This document shows positions 7,459-47,410 of a stretch of DNA of 47,549 bases, one piece after another (position 1 is the stretch's first letter; each line of letters opens with the position of its first letter). The stretch lies in contig JAGAKZ010000065.1 of NCBI GenBank assembly GCA_017848115.1, positions 1-47,549 on the forward strand, in the 5' to 3' direction. The notes beneath the pieces are model-generated. The model did not search any database. It saw nothing but the letters and a program-made list of their open reading frames with translations, and was not told the origin of the DNA. Source of the DNA: Oscillospiraceae bacterium (GTDB lineage Bacteria; Bacillota; Clostridia; Oscillospirales; Ruminococcaceae). The position numbers and the translations under genes are program-made.

Positions 7459-8492
7459 AAATAGGTATAGTTTCGATAACTTTAAAAGGAAGAGAGCTTT
7501 CATATAAAATGAGTAATTTCCTTTTGAAAAATCATAGTGTGGACAGATATTGCTATGAAAAAAACAGTGATGAAAATGCCTGTAGTTTTGATGATATCAG
7601 GATTCTTGTAAATAATATTTTTTCCAAATATGATGCATTGATATTTATTTGTGCAGTCGGAATAGCGGTGCGTTGTATTGCAGGGAACATAAAGTCAAAA
7701 GTTTCCGATCCGGCAGTAGTAGTAGCAGATGACAGCGGAAAGTTTGTGATTTCACTACTGTCAGGACATCTTGGCGGAGCAAACAGGCTTGCGGAGGTCA
7801 TAGCGGAAAATATAAGTGCGACACCGGTGATAACGACAGCTACTGATACAGGAAAAAAATTTTCACCTGATACATTTGCCAAAGCAAACAATCTCATAAT
7901 AAATGATATGGAAACTGCAAAGAAAATAGCTGTTGCAGTGTTAAGTGGAGAAAAAACAGGTTTGTTAAGTGAGTATCCGTATAAAAATCTTCCCAATGAA
8001 GTAAAAGCCGGGACAGATTTCAGATATGGTATATATATAGGCGAAAATAACTCTGACTCTCCTTTTGAAATCACGCTGCGACTTGTTCCGAAAAATCTTG
8101 TTGTCGGAATAGGCTGTAAGCGTGGTACAGAGTGTGAAAAAATAGAAAAATGCGTAAAGGAAGCGTTTTTGAAAAATAATATCTGCACATCACGTATATG
8201 CGCAGTGGCTACTATAGATATAAAGGCTGATGAAAAAGGTCTTACAGAATTTTGTGAGAAAAACAGGTTTGACATGCACACATATACGTCACAGCAACTA
8301 ATGGAAACCAAAGGAGAGTTTACTGTTTCTGATTTTGTAAAATCGGTAACAGGAACTGACAATGTTTGTGAGAGAAGTGCGGTAAAGCATAGCGGAGGCA
8401 AGCTCGTTATAAAAAAATATGTGGCGTATGGTGTTACGGTGGCGGTGGCAGAAATGCCGGTAGAAATTGATTTTGAGAGGAAAATTTTATGA
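7455..8492 (+). CDS. cbiG: Cobalt-precorrin-5A hydrolase
   Basis: CbiG opens the delta-lactone ring of cobalt-precorrin-5A and releases acetaldehyde; it exists only in the anaerobic pathway, so it defines the pathway type here. The 345-residue protein has the N-terminal region with FICAVGIAVR and SLLSGHLGGANRLA, and the C-terminal CbiG domain with VVGIGCKRGTECEKIE. It starts at GTG 7455, overlapping the cbiF stop (GTGA), with AGAAAGG upstream. It also overlaps the next gene by 4 bp, so translation is probably coupled. Confidence 0.96.
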   Translation: MKIGIVSITLKGRELSYKMSNFLLKNHSVDRYCYEKNSDENACSFDDIRILVNNIFSKYDALIFICAVGIAVRCIAGNIKSKVSDPAVVVADDSGKFVISLLSGHLGGANRLAEVIAENISATPVITTATDTGKKFSPDTFAKANNLIINDMETAKKIAVAVLSGEKTGLLSEYPYKNLPNEVKAGTDFRYGIYIGENNSDSPFEITLRLVPKNLVVGIGCKRGTECEKIEKCVKEAFLKNNICTSRICAVATIDIKADEKGLTEFCEKNRFDMHTYTSQQLMETKGEFTVSDFVKSVTGTDNVCERSAVKHSGGKLVIKKYVAYGVTVAVAEMPVEIDFERKIL

Positions 8493-33674: not shown

Positions 33675-33710
33675 ATAAAATTGTTAAGGAATAAAAAATT
33701 GAATATATAA

Positions 33711-33904
33711 ACAACAGGTGTCGGAGATTTTTCTTAAAAAAATCGGTCCGATGAAAAGGGAAGTCGGGTGAGAATCCCGCACGAACTCGTCACCGTAATT
33801 GAGGAGTAAGGAAAGATGCTGTTTTATAGCAGTAAGTCACTGTGATATATCATGGGAAGACCTTTCCGAACATTGATACATAAGCCGGGAGACCTGCCTG
33901 TTTG
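33711..33904 (+). ncRNA. Cobalamin (adenosylcobalamin-type) riboswitch
   Basis: The aptamer carries the conserved core GGGAAGTCGGGTGAGAATCC (33758-33777 region) followed by CGCACGAACTCGTCACCGTAA, and the B12 box AAGCCGGGAGACCTGCCTG at 33882-33900. The ends (ACAACAGG, CCTGTTTG) can pair to close the first helix. With cobalamin bound it should favour the downstream terminator at 34002-34034 and switch the uptake operon off. The genes that follow (BtuF/C/D-like, CbiK, CobA, CbiC) fit this control. Confidence 0.95.
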
Positions 33905-34001
33905 TTTGTACAGAAACTTTGTTTCAATGTCACGAGTAACTGGCAGTACGATACAGCATATGCGGTGTGGTTTTTTATATCGTTATATGTTTTCTTGTCG
34001 T

Positions 34002-40055: not shown

Positions 40056-40505
40056 TTATGTAGTTGGCTGGAGTAATGATTTTAAAATAAAGAGAATAAT
40101 ACCTAATGCTATCAGAACAACTATAAAATCTTTAAGCATTATAAAAAAAACTGTGATATTAATGAATGAAACGATTAAAGATAGAATGAATGCATAGGGA
40201 AACTCTGATATGTTGCTAAAAGTATTATATAATTTATCTATAAAACTAAAGTTTTTGCATTGTGGTGTTGTGAAATACTCTAAAGTTGAAAGAGCACTAA
40301 ATATCGTCATTGCGATACATATTAATGTAGTTAGTACTATCCAGAACACCGTAGATTGGTCGGATGTTGTAAACATAGCAGAGAATAAGTCGCCTAAAGA
40401 TAATGAGCCAAATGGTTCTATCTCTTTTATAAAATGTTTATGCAACATGGCGGATATAATGTTAAGAAAAGTAAGTGTAATTGCGATTGTAATGCTTTTT
40501 TTCAT
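40056..40505 (-). CDS. Small four-helix membrane protein
   Basis: The 149-residue protein starts at ATG 40505 behind AAGGAGG. It has four predicted membrane helices: SITIAITLTFLNIISAML, VFWIVLTTLICIAMTIFSAL, FPYAFILSLIVSFINITVFFIML and FIVVLIALGIILFILKSLL, with a short polar C-terminus. I do not recognise a family. It lies on the same strand as, and downstream of, the two RNA genes and the GTPase, 114 bases past the terminator of the second RNA. It could belong to that system, for example as a membrane effector, but the link is only positional. Confidence 0.6.
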   Translation of the reverse strand: MKKSITIAITLTFLNIISAMLHKHFIKEIEPFGSLSLGDLFSAMFTTSDQSTVFWIVLTTLICIAMTIFSALSTLEYFTTPQCKNFSFIDKLYNTFSNISEFPYAFILSLIVSFINITVFFIMLKDFIVVLIALGIILFILKSLLQPTT

Positions 40506-40618
40506 AATGAACCTCCTTCCTTTTAAAAATTAAATATCTTGGATAACTGTGGTAATATCACCTCCGTAAAATTTTTATCCGGCTGTCAAGTCCAAACTTG
40601 CTCCGAAAAATAAGTGAT

Positions 40619-40835
40619 AAAAAAACCGACACTGAGAACTCTCAATGTCGGCTAAATGTTCAATAATCTACACTTATACCTTGGTAACATTATGAGGACT
40701 CAAAAACCCTACAAACAAGAGTGCCTAAAACTAATGAAGAGATCAAAAAACCTCGTTCGTAAAGAAACTCTTGTGATTGGCTATGCAATTTTATACAATG
40801 GAAAATACATTGATAAATAGGTATGCAAAAAGCCT
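40619..40835 (-). ncRNA. Structured RNA R2, homologous to R1
   Basis: Minus-strand promoter: TTGACA (40870-40865), 17 bases, TATACT (40847-40842), giving a start near 40835. The end is a strong terminator: CCGACATTGAGA pairs with TCAGTGTCGG (40651-40626), then seven U. The RNA, about 217 nt, has a 5' leader, a helix ACAAGAGT/ACTCTTGT (40774-40767 with 40722-40715) closing a 44-base loop, a conserved region containing AAGGTATAAGTGTA with an AATGTT/AACATT pair around it, and the terminator. No ribosome-site-led reading frame is evident. The 3' half is closely similar to R1 (43123-43306). It accounts for the 40506-40921 gap. Confidence 0.82.
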
Positions 40836-40921
40836 ATAATTAGTATAACATAAAAATGTTTCTATGTCAATAGTTTTTTAAAATTTTTTTCTTAAACTTT
40901 AAAATTTTGATAAATTGTTAG

Positions 40922-43069
40922 TTAGCAAGTGAGGTTCTTGAAAATAATCGAATAATCTTCAAGTGCTTTTTTCATAGCAGCTTCTACGAACGTTGTGTCG
41001 GATAATTTATCATGAATGCAATTAAGAGCGTCCCAGAAGTACGTTTTGTTAAAATCATCTGCAAAAAATTTGTATGTCAACATTAATCTTAAGTAATAAA
41101 AAAATCCGTTATATTGATTTATATTAATTTCTATATTATGCTTAAAATCATTTTCGATTGCTTTTATTGTATCGTTTTCAAGGCTGTCAATATTAATTTT
41201 TATATTTATAGCTTCTAAAATTTCTGTTCTTGACATAATCTCGGATATGAAGTTTGCTACATATATACTTATGTTGTCATATACTTTAGCTGATGATGAC
41301 CAGCCTAAACCAACGACGTGCATATCACGCCATTTGTAAATTGTGTTCCAATGTGGATATGAATTGATGTAGCGGTAATAGTTTTTTGAGGCATTACTAT
41401 TGTGATATTTGACAATTTTTTCGGCGATTTTTGTGATATCGTCGTTCTTGAAACTGATTTCTATATTGTTAATGTCACTTTCATTTAATGTTATATCAGC
41501 ATTTTGTAATTTATTATAGTGAGTAAAATAGTTGAAGCGCTGTTTACCAATAAACTCAAATATCTTATTACGGTTGAAGGAGTTTAAATGTATTTTTATA
41601 TTGCTGCTAACAATATAGTATTTTTCTTTAGTAGATTCGATGCCATTAAAGTCTTGTTCTTCTATGAAGGATTCATCCTTCACCAGTTCCAGTTTTTTAA
41701 TAATATATTTGGTGTCTCTATTGTCCACTAGCGAACATGCTATAGTGGCATTAATATTGTCTTTAGTATCGTCTTCGGTGTATTTTTTAAAAGCTTCTTT
41801 AAAAGCTTCAATGTAATATTTGGCTTCATTATCGTCATTGTCCACATAATCAAAAGAGGAGTTTGTCTTGTTATCAAAGAATTTATTGATAACTTGGTCG
41901 ATATGTGTTGTTATTTTACAAATCGGCACTCCTTTGAAGTAATTCTTAAGTGTTACAAGAAAACTGTTGAAACCGTCAACAGCAGTATTGGCATTATGGA
42001 AAGCTAATATCATATCAGGCATAATTTCCTTGAGATTTTCTATAGTTGAATCAACACCTTCGTCCCCTTTTTTTTCAAGCCCCATGAGGTCATAAATCAC
42101 AAAAGGTGGTTTATTAAGTGTGTAAAATAGTTCATTATTTTTTTTCTCATATATTTTGTGTTTGTATGCTTCTTTTATTTCTGTTTTGTTAAGTATATCT
42201 ACTATCTGCTTGCTTATTTTAGCTGCAAAGGTAATTTGTGATACAATCAAATGTTTTCCGTCATTTACTTTCAGGTAGTCTAAAAAATTTATGATAGCTT
42301 CTTTGCTGGTATTTTCGTCGTTGACGCATAATGTGATTTTATCATGTATCAGATCATCTTTTGAGAGTTTTTCTATCTCTTCTTTGAAATTTTCTTGTAT
42401 CTTTTTAAAAATCTCGTTAAGTACATTTGATGAATCAAATTCAATGAGAGATAGTCTTTTGTTAATAAGTTCTTTCTTTACTTTTAATTTGTTAAACTCT
42501 TTATTGCTAGAGTCAGCTCTTTGCTTTGCTTTTTTTAGCATTTCTTCAAGAGTTCCTTGGCAGTCATCACCACTGATTATTTTTTTTGCTGCATCGGAAA
42601 AAGTCTTTTTTAAATCTTTTTTGATATCTTCGGAGCAATATTTTGTGATGTCAAAAGTTTTGCTGGTGTTATCGGTCATAAAGCTGTTGACTGCTTTTTC
42701 CGATTCGTCATCAAAACCGTCGGAATCTTTCAAGTTAAAAGTCATGTTAGCTATGGAATCACGCATAGTCTTTTGCAAAATATTGTATTGATTTGAAAAG
42801 TTAAACTCAAAAAAGACTGTATCTTCAGGAATTTTGTTACCTTCGCTATTGCTATCAGGGAATTTGATTATTGGGATAAGCTGTGTTTTTATCTTTGTTG
42901 ACTGAACGTTATTCATTAATCTAAGCAAATATTTATTCGCCGGCGAATCGAAAATCATTGATCCGAATCTGCTTTTTCCTGCACCGCTGGTGCCCGCCAA
43001 AGCATAGCGAGGGATACCTCTGGTTGCATTTATTTGTTGTTGAAAAAAACGATATTCTTGATTAGGCAT
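40922..43069 (-). CDS. Large predicted P-loop GTPase
   Basis: The start is ATG 43069, eight bases after GGAGG (43082-43078); a further ATG upstream overlaps that site. The 715-residue protein has a P-loop at residues 26-33 (GTSGAGKS), a G3-like DLMG in VIYDLMGLEKKGDEG near residue 330, and a G4-like THID in CKITTHIDQV near 390. Between them lies a helical, charged insertion of some 200 residues (residues 150-300), perhaps a coiled coil. A helical C-terminal region follows. There is no signal or membrane segment. Overall it resembles a large TRAFAC-type or dynamin-like GTPase, but no family is recognisable. It lies between two homologous RNAs and directly behind the first one's terminator. Confidence 0.82.
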   Translation of the reverse strand: MPNQEYRFFQQQINATRGIPRYALAGTSGAGKSRFGSMIFDSPANKYLLRLMNNVQSTKIKTQLIPIIKFPDSNSEGNKIPEDTVFFEFNFSNQYNILQKTMRDSIANMTFNLKDSDGFDDESEKAVNSFMTDNTSKTFDITKYCSEDIKKDLKKTFSDAAKKIISGDDCQGTLEEMLKKAKQRADSSNKEFNKLKVKKELINKRLSLIEFDSSNVLNEIFKKIQENFKEEIEKLSKDDLIHDKITLCVNDENTSKEAIINFLDYLKVNDGKHLIVSQITFAAKISKQIVDILNKTEIKEAYKHKIYEKKNNELFYTLNKPPFVIYDLMGLEKKGDEGVDSTIENLKEIMPDMILAFHNANTAVDGFNSFLVTLKNYFKGVPICKITTHIDQVINKFFDNKTNSSFDYVDNDDNEAKYYIEAFKEAFKKYTEDDTKDNINATIACSLVDNRDTKYIIKKLELVKDESFIEEQDFNGIESTKEKYYIVSSNIKIHLNSFNRNKIFEFIGKQRFNYFTHYNKLQNADITLNESDINNIEISFKNDDITKIAEKIVKYHNSNASKNYYRYINSYPHWNTIYKWRDMHVVGLGWSSSAKVYDNISIYVANFISEIMSRTEILEAINIKINIDSLENDTIKAIENDFKHNIEININQYNGFFYYLRLMLTYKFFADDFNKTYFWDALNCIHDKLSDTTFVEAAMKKALEDYSIIFKNLTC

Positions 43070-43122
43070 TATAAAAACCTCCATAAAACTTTGCTTCTGG
43101 TTATTGGAACTTAGAAATAATT

Positions 43123-43306
43123 AAAAAAATCCGACACAAGCGAAGATACACTCATGTCGGTTAAATGTCGAATAATCGAATATTTACACTTATACTTAAT
43201 AACATGAGATTAAAAAACCACATACAAAAAAGTAAGAATCATAATGATACGAACCGTGGAATTGACCAACAGCCAGATCGAAACACTTTTTTGTTTATCG
43301 TATAAT
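43123..43306 (-). ncRNA. Structured RNA R1, upstream of the GTPase gene
   Basis: Minus-strand promoter: TTGACT (43341-43336), 17 bases, TACAAT (43318-43313), start near 43306. The terminator is CCGACATGAGTG...CTTGTGTCGG (43160-43131) followed by A and seven U. The RNA, about 184 nt, has a 10-bp helix ACAAAAAAGT/ACTTTTTTGT (43294-43285 with 43233-43224) closing a 51-base variable loop, then the conserved region with AAGTATAAGTGTA, then the terminator. The helix sits in the same place as the ACAAGAGT/ACTCTTGT helix of R2 with different bases but kept pairing. The GTPase ribosome site is about 40 bases past the terminator, with no clear promoter between. Confidence 0.82.
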
Positions 43307-43453
43307 AATTTCATTGTATCATGTTATTTTTCAGAAGTCAATAGTGAGAAATGAACAATTTTTTTTAATATAATTTATTATTAATAGTTGTTCTGAATAT
43401 ATTTAAAGTTTATCATAGATTTTGAAAATTACCGCTAGACATATCGTATCTGT

Positions 43454-43482: not shown

Positions 43483-43520
43483 TTTTATTTGGAAATACAC
43501 ATTTTAAGCAAATATTTTTA

Positions 43521-43549
43521 TGCAACCTTTTTTATATTATGAGCGTGTT
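43521..43549 (+). promoter_or_regulatory. ECF sigma autoregulatory promoter
   Basis: TGCAACC (43521-43527), 16 bases and CGTGTT (43544-43549). The same boxes with the same spacing recur at 44695-44723 before the transglutaminase gene. Confidence 0.85.
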
Positions 43550-43603
43550 ATTTATGAAAGCTCTGATAAATCGGTTGCTGGTTGCAGAAAGGAGAAATTT
43601 GCG

Positions 43604-44095
43604 GTGGGTAAAAATGCCGTAGAACTGTCTGCCAGAGAATTGGTTGATAAATATTCAGCTATGATATATCGTCTTGCATATGTAAGACTTAACAGCAACG
43701 CTGACGCAGAGGACATAACACAGGAGGTGCTGTTAAAATATATACGTGCAGATAAAAAATTTAAAGATGAGGAACATCGTAAAGCGTGGCTTCTTAAAGT
43801 TACTGCAAATGCAGTTGTTTCGCATATAAGAAGTCAGAAACGCAGTCAGATGGTAGACCTTGAAGAAATAGAAGAAGTGGTTGCAGCACCTGAAAATAAA
43901 CATCGTGATTTAAAATATGTCATAGAGCAGTTGCCCGAAAAATATCGTATGGTGATTCATATGTTCTATTATGAAGAGTTAAGCATAAAAGAAATATCGG
44001 AAATAACGGGTGACAGTGAAGGTACAGTAAAATCACAGCTATCAAGAGGACGTGACAAATTAAAGAAATTGCTTGAAGAGGGGGGCAGATTATGA
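43604..44095 (+). CDS. ECF-family sigma factor
   Basis: The start is GTG 43604 (MGKNAVELSARELVD), nine bases after AAAGGAG; the upstream open frame contains the operon's own promoter and is not coding. The 163-residue protein has sigma region 2 (YSAMIYRLAYVRLNSNADAED then ITQEVLLKYI and AWLLKVTANAVVSHIR) and region 4 (LPEKYRMVIHMFYYEELSIKE, ISEITGDSEGTVKSQLSRGRDKL). It overlaps the membrane partner gene by 4 bp (ATGA). The identical promoter boxes before it and before the transglutaminase gene suggest it recognises TGCAACC-N16-CGTGTT and activates both. Confidence 0.94.
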   Translation: MGKNAVELSARELVDKYSAMIYRLAYVRLNSNADAEDITQEVLLKYIRADKKFKDEEHRKAWLLKVTANAVVSHIRSQKRSQMVDLEEIEEVVAAPENKHRDLKYVIEQLPEKYRMVIHMFYYEELSIKEISEITGDSEGTVKSQLSRGRDKLKKLLEEGGRL

Positions 44096-44688
44096 GTGAC
44101 AAGATAAAAACATTTTACAATGATATGGTTGAGGAAATAGTACCTGATGAAAAATTTCTCAACTCGCTTGTTGATGTTCTTGAAAAAGAACAAACTCAGA
44201 TAAAAAGACAGAAAACAAAAATATACTATATGAAACGCATTTTACCGATGGTAGCGTGTGTTGCACTTGTTGTAGGAACAGCTGTATTTGCAGGCGTAGG
44301 AAAAGATAAACAGGGAACAGGTGTAAAAGTTCAGCAGGGTGATATAACATCTCCTGTACTTACAGGAAACTTTGAAAAAAATGAAAGTGTCAGTACCGAC
44401 AAATCAGAGTATATCTCAAAGCTGTACAACAAACTTATATCAGACGCATCGGCATATATATATGTAAATAACGAAAATACATTTGTAGAAGAAAAACTCG
44501 TTTCAGATGAAGAAAAGAAAAATATTCTTGAGATTTTAAAGAACGGCACACTGACAGATGAATATGAAAAATCCGATACAAAGTTTTTTATGGCTGTCTT
44601 TAGTGACGGCGAAATACTGAAATTTAATATTTCTGATGATACATATATGGAAATTCCGTCTGAGGAAATATTTTTAAAAATTTTTTAA
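44092..44688 (+). CDS. Probable membrane anti-sigma factor
   Basis: The 198-residue protein has a cytoplasmic N-terminus of about 45 residues (MSDKIKTFYNDMVEEIVPDEKFLNSLVDVL), one membrane helix (about 48-68, ILPMVACVALVVGTAVFAGV) and an outer domain of about 130 residues. It overlaps the sigma gene, the usual place for an anti-sigma factor. There is no zinc-binding H-x3-C-x2-C motif, so it would be a non-zinc type. The outer domain (ISKLYNKLISDASAYIYVNNE, FFMAVFSDGEILKFNI) may sense the envelope signal. Confidence 0.8.
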   Translation: MSDKIKTFYNDMVEEIVPDEKFLNSLVDVLEKEQTQIKRQKTKIYYMKRILPMVACVALVVGTAVFAGVGKDKQGTGVKVQQGDITSPVLTGNFEKNESVSTDKSEYISKLYNKLISDASAYIYVNNENTFVEEKLVSDEEKKNILEILKNGTLTDEYEKSDTKFFMAVFSDGEILKFNISDDTYMEIPSEEIFLKIF

Positions 44689-44694
44689 ACTGAC

Positions 44695-44723
44695 TGCAAC
44701 CTTTTTATATTTTACAGCGTGTT
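44695..44723 (+). promoter_or_regulatory. ECF sigma target promoter
   Basis: TGCAACC (44695-44701), 16 bases and CGTGTT (44718-44723). The whole 30-base stretch is nearly the same as the one before the sigma gene, including the T-run after TGCAACC. Confidence 0.85.
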
Positions 44724-44744
44724 ATTGATGTAGGAGGCAATAAG

Positions 44745-44798
44745 ATGCCAAGAACAAAGTTTTTTTATTTAAAGAAAAGAGAGGATATTTTATTATGA
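44745..44798 (+). CDS. 17-codon leader ORF coupled to the transglutaminase gene
   Basis: ATG 44745 follows GGAGG (44733-44737) at seven bases, an ideal site. The product is MPRTKFFYLKKREDILL. Its TGA overlaps the ATG of the next gene (ATGA), and the weaker AGAGAGGA site of that gene lies inside it. It is probably a translational coupler rather than a functional peptide. Confidence 0.6.
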   Translation: MPRTKFFYLKKREDILL

Positions 44799-47410
44799 AA
44801 AAGAAAGTAAGAGTATTATGGTTGTGTCTGGCTATGGCGATGACAGTTTCAACATTTGGTGGTTGTGCGGATAAAAACAGCAGTTCTTCCGAAAAGGAAA
44901 GCAGCAGTATAAGCGAAACAAAGGAAGAAGTAACTGAAAGCAAAAAAGAAAATGAAAAAAATAATAAAGATGATAAAAAAGAGGAAACAGTTGAAGGTGT
45001 GACAGGAAGTTATGCAGCAGGGATTTCTCCGGCTGATTTGAAAAAGAGATATGGTGTTGAAGAAACAGAAGAAATCATGCCACTCTATAACGTTTCTCAG
45101 ACAGAAAACTTTACTTTTGAGTTTAATTTCAGTGATTATGAATACGATGTTGAGCTGTATGATTATGTTTCCATACACACAGACTATAACTGCGAAGAGG
45201 ACAGCAAGATATACTACAATGCAATGACCGAAGTAGTTGACGATAAGAAAACAGTACTTACAGTTTCACCAATGTCACCTGTTCTAGCGTCACAGCAGCA
45301 GGATACCGAATATGTTTACGGCGGAGAGGACCAGTGGGGAAATGCGCCGATGTACTATATCGCTGTTCACTATGATATGGACGCTGATACACCGGTAAAA
45401 CTTGATACTCCTGTAGTTATACCGTTTACAGTAAGAAATGAAGTAAATGCACCGACCCTTGACAGAAATGTTGACAGTGAAGGTTGTTTTTCATTAAGCT
45501 GGACACCTGTTGACGGTGCAGAAAAATACAATGTGTATCATCTTGTAACAGACTCGACATCTACAGGTGACAATAATGATGCGGTAAATGGCGCACAGAA
45601 AGGATATGATGCAGGCAACAATCCTGTATATCTTCTTTTTGATGCTTCAACAACTGAATGTACTTTTAATAACTTTGCAGGTGAAGGCGGAGGAAAATCT
45701 GAGCTTGAAACTTCTGACGGTATAGTAAATCTTGGTCAGAATTACTGCGTATGCGGTGAATACTACGTTACAGCAGTGGTCAACGGAGTAGAGAGCGGAA
45801 TGAGTAATGGTGTCGGAACAAGTGACCTTGTACTTCCGTACAAGACTGTAAGTGATTTTAGCACGGAAGATTATGCATCACCTTCTGATTTCCCATCTTC
45901 TGTTGATGTTTTAAATATTGACGGAAGTATCACAGCGAGAGATGTAATATATACTCCGATTGAAAACGGAAAGTATTCATATGTTGTAGAAGGCACATCA
46001 CTTATGGGAAAAATAAGAGCGCTTGAAGATAACGCACAGCCTCCTGTACCTGTAATCGATAAAAATGATGGCGGTGATGTACTTCCCGAAAGCGATATAG
46101 ACATGGTTCCTGATAATGATATAGAAACGATCATTGGAACAGATGACAATATATATGAAGAACCCGAAGTAGCAGAGCCCGAAATAACAGAACCTGAGGT
46201 AACAGAGCCCGAAGTAACAGAGCCCGAAGTAACAGAGCCTGAGGCAACAGAGCCCGAAGTTACAGAACCTGAAGTTACAGACCCCGAAGTAACTAAAACA
46301 GAACCAAAATCACCTGAAAGTGATGAAAATATTATTGAAAAACAGCGTGAGAATACAGATAACCACATTTCCAATTCTCTTGATGAAAAAGTTATAGTAG
46401 CCGCAGAAGGAATATATGTAAATGCTGATTCTGCTGAAGAAGAATGGCTTGCGCTTAATATGATAAGCGGAAATGAAGAATTTTCACTTGAAGCATTCCC
46501 TTCACTTCAGGACCCGAACAGACTTGTTGACGTATTTTTAAAAACTATGCAACAAAATCCTTATGTGTTCGGAGTAGAGAGATACGCATATGATTATGAT
46601 ACATTTACATTCAGAGTACAGTATGCGTATGACAAGGAAGAACTTACACAAAAGCAGACCGAACTTGCACAGAAGGCACAGCAGGTCGTTGAGCAGACTG
46701 TAACAGATGGTATGTCAGATGAAGAAAAAGCAGATGCTTTTTATGAATATCTGGAGAATAATTCTGTTTATGATGATGATGCTCTGAGTGCAGCAGAAGA
46801 GAGCGGTTTCCTTGCAGAAAATCTTTCAGACTTCAAGGATTCATTTGAAGCATATGGAATACTTGTAAACGGAAAAGGTGTGTGTGCGTCATATGCAGCA
46901 TCATACAGACTTCTTTGCGACATTGCCGGAGTAGAATGCCTTGTTGCTACAGGATATGTTGACGGAAATCTCCCTCATGCATGGAATATAATAAATCTTG
47001 AAGATAAATGGTATGAAGTTGACTGTACAAATAACTATAATGTAACCGGAATAAACTATTTCCTTTACAAAGCTGATGACGAAATAACAAAGAAATCAGG
47101 TTATGAACGAGATGCGGATTTTGCACTTGATATGATGCTTGAAGATTATAAATGTGAAGACGAATCAAAGGATTACTACAATAAAAATGGTCTTGTTGCA
47201 AGTTCTGTTGACGAATACAAAGAAGTTCTGCTTGCAAATCTTAAAGAAGATACAACTTCACTTGCTGTACGCTGGTACGGAGAAGAAGTCGGAACAGAAG
47301 ATGTGAAAAATACTATACAGCTTGCTTTCAACGAACTTGGTATGGAAGATAAATTAAGCAGTGTTATGTTTGGTGTTTGTGCAGGATTTATACTGATTGA
47401 GATAGCTTAA
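44795..47410 (+). CDS. Large surface lipoprotein with transglutaminase-like domain
   Basis: The 871-residue protein has a lipoprotein signal ending TFGGC and a charged Ser/Lys/Glu linker. A beta-rich region (about 85-400) includes a fibronectin-like segment (APTLDRNVDSEGCFSLSWTPVDGAEKYNVYHL). Nine EPEVT-type repeats follow (about residues 455-505). The C-terminal transglutaminase-like domain has the triad Cys near 697 (GKGVCASYAAS), His near 727 (LPHAWN) and Asp near 743 (YEVDCT). Such domains act as cysteine proteases or cross-linkers at the cell surface. It is preceded by the ECF sigma promoter, so it is the likely main target of that sigma factor. Confidence 0.9.
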   Translation: MKKKVRVLWLCLAMAMTVSTFGGCADKNSSSSEKESSSISETKEEVTESKKENEKNNKDDKKEETVEGVTGSYAAGISPADLKKRYGVEETEEIMPLYNVSQTENFTFEFNFSDYEYDVELYDYVSIHTDYNCEEDSKIYYNAMTEVVDDKKTVLTVSPMSPVLASQQQDTEYVYGGEDQWGNAPMYYIAVHYDMDADTPVKLDTPVVIPFTVRNEVNAPTLDRNVDSEGCFSLSWTPVDGAEKYNVYHLVTDSTSTGDNNDAVNGAQKGYDAGNNPVYLLFDASTTECTFNNFAGEGGGKSELETSDGIVNLGQNYCVCGEYYVTAVVNGVESGMSNGVGTSDLVLPYKTVSDFSTEDYASPSDFPSSVDVLNIDGSITARDVIYTPIENGKYSYVVEGTSLMGKIRALEDNAQPPVPVIDKNDGGDVLPESDIDMVPDNDIETIIGTDDNIYEEPEVAEPEITEPEVTEPEVTEPEVTEPEATEPEVTEPEVTDPEVTKTEPKSPESDENIIEKQRENTDNHISNSLDEKVIVAAEGIYVNADSAEEEWLALNMISGNEEFSLEAFPSLQDPNRLVDVFLKTMQQNPYVFGVERYAYDYDTFTFRVQYAYDKEELTQKQTELAQKAQQVVEQTVTDGMSDEEKADAFYEYLENNSVYDDDALSAAEESGFLAENLSDFKDSFEAYGILVNGKGVCASYAASYRLLCDIAGVECLVATGYVDGNLPHAWNIINLEDKWYEVDCTNNYNVTGINYFLYKADDEITKKSGYERDADFALDMMLEDYKCEDESKDYYNKNGLVASSVDEYKEVLLANLKEDTTSLAVRWYGEEVGTEDVKNTIQLAFNELGMEDKLSSVMFGVCAGFILIEIA
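46158..46304 (+). repeat. Nine tandem 15-bp repeats (EPEVT pentapeptide)
   Basis: The units read PEVAE, PEITE, PEVTE three times, PEATE, PEVTE, PEVTD and PEVTK. At DNA level the units are close to CCCGAAGTAACAGAG. They make a stiff acidic spacer between the outer domains of the lipoprotein, and unit number is likely to vary between strains. Confidence 0.9.

Follow-up and report, generated by a model that had tools for sequence, protein, structure and literature searches.

The window analyzed here is a 47,549-nucleotide (nt) stretch, contig JAGAKZ010000065.1 of assembly GCA_017848115.1 (Oscillospiraceae bacterium), and the subject is a locus on its minus strand that contains two structured RNAs, R1 (43306-43123) and R2 (40835-40619), both confirmed on that strand at these coordinates. 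An earlier note on this DNA described the two RNAs as simply flanking a large GTPase gene. This layout has to be revised, as each RNA lies as a 5' leader ahead of a different gene: R1 precedes the gene of a GTPase-like P-loop protein, and R2 precedes a second gene (40505-40056, minus strand), absent from that note, which encodes a hydrophobic protein of 149 amino acids (aa). The features of the locus are the following.

43313..43341, minus strand: R1 promoter, TTGACT-17-TACAAT, with TG before the second hexamer (10/12 in the consensus scan)
43123..43306, minus strand: R1 leader RNA, its start placed from the promoter and its end at the T tract; homologous to R2; folding z-score -3.45
43224..43294, minus strand: R1 upper hairpin P1, arms 43285-43294 and 43224-43233, loop unlike that of R2 (minimum-energy folds)
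43205..43222, minus strand: R1 linker hairpin with a U-rich loop, weak (-1.9 kcal/mol), possible anti-antiterminator
43151..43208, minus strand: R1 candidate antiterminator, CUCAUGUU (43201-43208) with GACAUGAG (43151-43158) around hairpin H2 (43162-43192); nascent-length folding, pairing 0.99
43131..43160, minus strand: R1 intrinsic terminator, 12 pairs and a T tail
40922..43069, minus strand: gene of the GTPase-like P-loop protein; 715 aa if started at the ATG preceded by GGAGG, 720 aa if started at an upstream ATG (43084)
40842..40870, minus strand: R2 promoter, TTGACA-17-TATACT, with TG before the second hexamer (11/12 in the consensus scan)
40619..40835, minus strand: R2 leader RNA, its start likewise placed from the promoter; homologous to R1; folding z-score -4.38
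40715..40774, minus strand: R2 upper hairpin P1, arms 40767-40774 and 40715-40722
40693..40713, minus strand: R2 linker hairpin with a U-rich loop, weak (-2.5 kcal/mol), possible anti-antiterminator
40639..40696, minus strand: R2 candidate antiterminator, CUCAUAAUGUU (40686-40696) with GACAUUGAGAG (40639-40649) around H2 (40653-40676); two registers; pairing 0.88
40624..40653, minus strand: R2 intrinsic terminator, 13 pairs and a T tail
40056..40505, minus strand: gene of the 149-aa hydrophobic protein, the second target; open reading frame with GGAGG before the ATG; hydrophobic stretches 3-22, 50-76 and 99-149

The R1 T tract ends (43123) about 40 nt upstream of the Shine-Dalgarno sequence of the GTPase-like gene, and the R2 T tract ends (40619) about 110 nt upstream of the start of the second gene, which has its own GGAGG. 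The GTPase-like gene most probably starts at 43069, since this ATG lies 8 nt after GGAGG and the ATG at 43084 overlaps that GGAGG. The 149-aa product is probably a multi-pass membrane protein.

The homology of the two RNAs is well supported. The local alignment of R1 and R2 scores 77, the best of 500 dinucleotide-shuffled pairs reaching 34. When the 3' scaffold is aligned by hand, 56 of the 64 ungapped columns are identical, with 13 gap columns, which bears out the previous estimate by eye of roughly 50 matches in 60. Both RNAs are also significantly structured, with folding z-scores of -3.45 (R1) and -4.38 (R2) and none of 200 shuffles as stable in either case; the terminator hairpins contribute to both scores. 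The linker, hairpin H2 and the terminator arm are conserved between the leaders, the H2 stem and the GAUUAUU loop element being sequence-identical, while the upper hairpin varies. The conserved scaffold with variable upper hairpins, as described before, is confirmed: H2 and the linker are kept, and the upper loops differ.

The covariation claimed in the earlier note holds in one place. In the upper helix (ACAAAAAAGU/ACUUUUUUGU in R1, ACAAGAGU/ACUCUUGU in R2) there is, by eye, one both-sides change, from A-U to G-C. Otherwise the case is thin: the helix of R2 is two pairs shorter, and the lower stem of H2, UAAGUGU/ACAUUUA, shows no variation between the RNAs. With a single both-sides change in two sequences the signal is weak, and the covariation within the locus is real but small.

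R2 also contains (40700-40753, minus strand) an 11-nt element, AGGGTTTTTGA, that occurs twice with one mismatch, in the linker and in the loop of the upper hairpin; in R1 a similar copy is seen by eye in the linker only (GGTTTTTTAA). The doubled element of R2 is a possible repeated binding site.

The promoters and intrinsic terminators of both RNAs were recovered as well, the terminators with stems of 12 (R1) and 13 (R2) base pairs followed by T tails. In the consensus scan the R2 site is the best of the region (11/12), and the R1 site (10/12) shares its score with three others, of which one (41727-41700) is on the minus strand. Of the sites on that strand, those of R1 and R2 alone have TG before the second hexamer. 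Promoter-like sites are not enriched across the region (19, with a shuffle mean of 20.8); since their number is at the chance level, it is the position and quality of the R1 and R2 sites that matter. There are four terminator-like stems with T tails in the region, compared to a shuffle mean of 1.3, and two of these belong to R1 (43160-43131) and R2 (40653-40624).

On the minus strand between the R2 terminator and the membrane-protein gene no promoter-like site passes the consensus scan. Ahead of the GTPase-like gene the sole alternative listed is a 9/12 site at 43171-43143, which overlaps the R1 terminator. As far as the consensus scan goes, the order expected of an attenuator (promoter, leader, terminator, promoterless gene) is therefore found cleanly for R2, and for R1 with this one overlapping site. 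The simplest way for both genes to be transcribed is by read-through from the leader promoters, as no minus-strand site passes the scan between the R2 terminator and its gene, the alternative listed at R1 overlaps the terminator and the number of sites in the region is at chance; for the same reasons each RNA is placed as the leader of the gene that follows it.

Folding of the leaders points to a way in which the read-through could be controlled. In both RNAs the CUC..AUGUU segment, located between the upper hairpin and H2, is predicted to pair with the 5' arm of the terminator. The predicted R1 pairing is that of CUCAUGUU with GACAUGAG. In R2 there are two registers: when the RNA is cut early, CUCA-(UA)-AUGUU pairs with GACAUUGAG with two bases bulged, and with two more bases CUC-A-UAAUGUU pairs with GACAUUG-A-GAG, forming ten pairs with one A-A mismatch. 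In the nascent-length folding this pairing peaks at 0.99 in R1 and 0.88 in R2 and falls to 0.00 and 0.01, respectively, once the 3' arm of the terminator emerges, so the two predicted folds are mutually exclusive. The same aligned segments pair in R1 and R2 despite differing lengths: the inserted G of R2 pairs with the C left partnerless in R1, and the inserted U of R2 is matched by an A in register 1. The linker hairpins (-1.9 kcal/mol in R1, -2.5 kcal/mol in R2) use the same CUCA as the antiterminator and could thus act as anti-antiterminators.

Several controls speak for this pairing, the statistics as a whole being moderate. When the alignment columns of the linker and H2 were shuffled, the real consensus energy was reached in 11 of 2000 cases. 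For R1, the duplex was matched or beaten in a fraction of 0.003 of 1000 shuffles of the linker alone. By the pairing of the terminator 5' arm with upstream RNA, R2 (0.989) ranks fourth among 155 terminator-like sites of the window and the fetched loci, R1 and R2 included; this control is rough, since most of the loci are segments of other genomes that were picked by pattern. In a narrower version with 54 sites, three reach at least 0.85, R2 among them. Elsewhere in the window, the 5' arm of a terminator-like site at 8183 (minus strand) also pairs strongly with upstream sequence (0.919).

A number of observations weigh against such a switch. When only the linker columns are shuffled, the real energy is reached in 112 of 2000 cases. 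Measured against the whole upstream sequence the duplex is ordinary, being matched or beaten in a fraction of 0.22 (R1) and 0.47 (R2) of 1000 shuffles, and even with the shuffled linker alone the R2 fraction is 0.107 of 1000. The 5'-arm pairing of R1 (0.833) is unimpressive, with rank 16-20 of 155, and the register of the R2 pairing is unsettled between the two predictions. The 9/12 site at 43171-43143 could bypass the R1 terminator. Finally, no ligand or regulator is known, and two sequences from one genome allow no independent covariation test of the pairing. The R1/R2 switch is, in sum, plausible in the predicted folds and conserved in position, not proven.

Our preferred explanation, which we hold with somewhat better than even confidence, is that R1 and R2 arose by duplication and divergence and serve as 5' leaders, controlling two neighboring transcription units by transcription attenuation. 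By default, the terminator would form, and only a short leader RNA would be produced. A shared signal would stabilize the helix of the CUC..AUGUU segment with the terminator 5' arm around the UAAGUGU..ACAUUUA hairpin; with this helix stabilized, the terminator would be blocked and the downstream gene transcribed. Either a small molecule or a protein, perhaps the GTPase-like protein itself, might serve as the signal. A constrained linker and H2 together with a free upper hairpin fit a protein or ligand that acts on the scaffold and favors read-through, and the leader common to two unlike genes suggests a shared input. The analysis establishes the homology, the leader position, the terminator sequences and the predicted mutually exclusive folds, whereas operation of the switch in the cell is an inference. 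The best reading is a two-target attenuation module on an orphan locus. Attenuation as such is a known kind of control; neither the element nor its target proteins had a match in the libraries searched.

The main rival to attenuating leaders, in our opinion unlikely, is an RNA antitoxin of a type III toxin-antitoxin or AbiF-like system, with the abundant terminated RNA binding and restraining the protein made by occasional read-through and both RNAs possibly binding the GTPase-like protein. The order of promoter, RNA, terminator and gene with no promoter between is the one described for RCd22-abiF of C. difficile (PMC12373285); moreover, the sequence conservation of the scaffold is what one would expect of a protein site, and the GTPase-like gene is unmatched in either same-genus genome sampled. 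On the other hand, abiF and other Rfam families give no match, R1 has no direct repeat and R2 only one 11-nt pair, no toxin or defence family matches the protein significantly, and the second RNA precedes a different kind of gene. The toxin-antitoxin-like idea of the earlier note survives as a rival only, because type III and AbiF systems have the same promoter-RNA-terminator-gene layout (PMC12373285). Since the RNA motif, the protein family and tandem repeats were not found, the locus is not filed as a member of these systems, although it could still work as one.

A related and rather doubtful possibility is a double role for the R1/R2 scaffold as a protein-binding RNA: it would act as the switch of its own transcript and, after termination, join the GTPase-like protein in a complex. 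If so, the locus would represent an RNA-restrained module based on a GTPase, with an enzyme and its membrane partner under the control of one RNA architecture. We know of no kind of toxin-antitoxin or defence system that resembles such a module.

Ribosome-mediated attenuation, where a leader peptide would sense translation stalling and free the terminator arm, is improbable. In R2 an 18-codon frame is possible that begins with TTG, is preceded by GAGG and ends inside the antiterminator strand, and a second frame of six codons follows its terminator. R1, however, lacks any frame of at least five codons with a Shine-Dalgarno-like word of at least four bases in front, yet the scaffold is common to both RNAs, which makes this mechanism less likely. 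Little more can be said for free-standing small RNAs acting elsewhere, with both genes transcribed independently, an option we regard as improbable to a slightly higher degree: the good promoters and terminators and the 9/12 site overlapping the R1 terminator would suit it, but promoter-like sites are at the chance level and none lies on the minus strand between the R2 terminator and its gene. That the RNAs work together with the GTPase-like protein in an RNA-guided or ribonucleoprotein machine of defence, the variable upper hairpins giving specificity, is very improbable, for although the conserved scaffold with a differing upper hairpin and the large orphan P-loop protein agree with it and no result excludes it, the layout suits leaders, the covariance model finds only two copies in the genome, and the PADLOC defence models give no match, so that the defence role considered in the earlier note has no support from them.

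Searches for relatives of the leaders returned little beyond R1 and R2. The outcome that the earlier note considered unfavorable to its proposal, a known Rfam family occurring in the absence of the GTPase, was not observed: at the gathering score Rfam has no match to R1 or R2, and at E up to 5 the two matches in 40590-43330 lie over neither RNA, so that R1 and R2 match no riboswitch, T-box or RF03085 model. A covariance model was built from a single alignment (A4) with a structure assigned by us; two other alignments (A1, A3) were dropped, as the H2 motif was out of register. In the own genome (81% complete) the model finds only R1 and R2. It finds no further match in 394 genomes of the order and one in 391 genomes of the class; in both samples, which overlap, at most nine candidates per genome were scored under strict filters, so that relatives may be missed. 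The lone extra match (G724), with 38.8 bits and an E of 0.0012 for one genome, lies partly over the end of a gene, presumably of a transporter binding protein, and is considered to be due to chance.

Exact pattern scans returned 0, 0, 7 and 3 stretches in viral contigs and 96 in the genome collection, and the covariance model gave no convincing match on all 96, all 7 and the two new stretches of the last scan. The best of the 96 (L045; 24.7 bits, E 0.16) is located at the pattern site and lacks the linker, and another stretch (L129) resembles coding sequence by eye; both were rejected. On a phage contig (L025; 2115-2220, minus strand) an element scoring 26.7 bits shares the H2 stem, carries GATTA in its loop and is immediately followed by a terminator, ahead of a gene that we take to be portal-like. 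The stretch was chosen by pattern, and its predicted folds contain no antiterminator of the R1/R2 type; it may be a relative or a coincidence. A nucleotide query with R2 gave five plasmid and five phage records covering 11-16% of the query (E 0.07 to 0.9), taken as chance. The R1 query of the own genome gave, besides itself, chance-level matches only; it says little, since R2 was missed as well.

The large protein contains GTSGAGKS at 31, DLMG at 332 and THID at 393 (720-aa numbering), which we take to be the G1, G3-like and G4-like motifs of GTPases. DLMG is 301 residues beyond GTSGAGKS, and THID is 61 further. GTPase-like is the most that can be said from these motifs. No significant match was found in Pfam, PADLOC, NCBIfam or PDB sequences; hence, of the large unknown GTPase of the earlier note there stands a P-loop protein without a significant library match, the word GTPase resting on motifs only. 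In Pfam, at E up to 1, a single family appears (Evr1_Alr, E 0.14, below the cut-off), and it is not Abi_2. PHROGs gives weak matches of unknown function only (best E 0.0088), and a G4-G5 fragment meets G-alpha at E 0.04, also below the cut-off. The single-sequence AlphaFold model has a mean predicted local distance difference test score of 33.6 and is of no use.

Relatives of this protein were found in none of the genome contigs, viral contigs and plasmids searched, and in phages none was found at 1e-5, with one 25%-identical stretch at E 0.1. In 197 genomes of the family the lone match besides its own genome is a short chance one, and in the order (394) and phylum (348) samples, with at most two or three candidates per genome scored, only its own genome is recovered. 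The membrane protein has one match besides its own in the 197 genomes (E 0.00099), rejected as it is antisense to another gene, and none in viral contigs or plasmids.

The GTPase-like gene has no match in either same-genus genome sampled. In one of these, G181, the genes flanking the locus lie on different contigs and have other neighbors, and no clean empty site was obtained. For these two reasons the locus looks accessory. Composition is a weak guide here: the G+C content of the GTPase-like gene (0.312) is below that of seven of the eight other genes of the window measured (the membrane-protein gene apart), its third-position G+C (0.32) is above that of five of the eight, and the 3.3-kb stretch of the locus ranks only 61 of 443 segments from the lowest G+C. 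In the literature, no such GTPase-leader pair was found in titles and abstract openings, a survey in which subscription papers are thinly covered.

Other parts of the window carry recognizable gene clusters. A cobalamin riboswitch (RF00174, 93.1 bits) is located at 33699-33915 on the plus strand, and beyond it on the same strand there are genes of a FecCD-type transporter, an ATP-binding cassette ATPase, CbiK, CobA/BtuR and CbiC, likely a cluster of corrinoid uptake and synthesis. At 43520-47410 (plus strand) there are genes of a sigma-70-family factor, its 198-aa partner without a Pfam match, a probable anti-sigma factor, and an 871-aa transglutaminase-domain protein with an EVTEPEVTEP repeat. 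The sigma factor and its partner are kept in the same-genus genome G181 beside other genes.

If attenuation by R1 and R2 is real, the locus would provide an unclassified leader-RNA element with two natural targets at one place and a testable switch, and two orphan proteins, a P-loop GTPase-like one and a hydrophobic membrane one, would be tied into one regulated function. Where homology offers no clue, leaders common to unlike genes are a strong hint that the genes are partners. Should the RNA bind the protein as well, RNA-restrained systems would be extended to a new protein class.

Leaders of the T-box and metabolite-riboswitch type have a mutually exclusive antiterminator and an unpaired stretch between two helices, followed by a terminator and a gene. 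R1 and R2 resemble them in size (about 185-215 nt), in the predicted exclusive antiterminator with its unpaired stretch between two helices and in the terminator and gene that follow. Unlike them, R1 and R2 have no relevant Rfam match (E up to 5), the T-box sequence was not seen by eye, and no aptamer was recognized. Protein-dependent antiterminators, such as the ribonucleic antiterminators (RAT) of BglG/LicT and the ANTAR targets, have a short conserved hairpin just before the terminator, and a short conserved hairpin ahead of the terminator, common to two target genes, is also present in R1 and R2. In contrast to these targets, the RAT and ANTAR consensus sequences were not seen by eye in R1 or R2; in a Pfam scan of eight neighboring proteins no regulator domain of the BglG/LicT or ANTAR type was found.

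With the type III toxin-antitoxin systems ToxIN, TenpIN and CptIN, as they are presented in PMC12373285, the locus shares an RNA and a terminator before a gene, and it differs from them in having no tandem repeat array and in its 715-aa P-loop protein, which has no toxin match in Pfam, NCBIfam or PADLOC. The closest layout is that of RCd22-AbiF (RF03085). According to that source, RCd22 of C. difficile is located between a promoter and a terminator ahead of abiF; transcription mostly ends at this terminator, and the protein is neutralized by the RNA (PMC12373285). The SigA-type promoter, the structured RNA, the intrinsic terminator, the read-through gene and the absence of a promoter between them are common to both loci so far as described there (PMC12373285), the read-through at R1 and R2 being presumed. 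Unlike RCd22-AbiF, R1 and R2 do not match RF03085, and the Abi_2 domain of AbiF was not found here by Pfam. The locus also differs in that it consists of two units with one RNA each, the second of them before a hydrophobic protein, and in that the leaders contain a candidate antiterminator.

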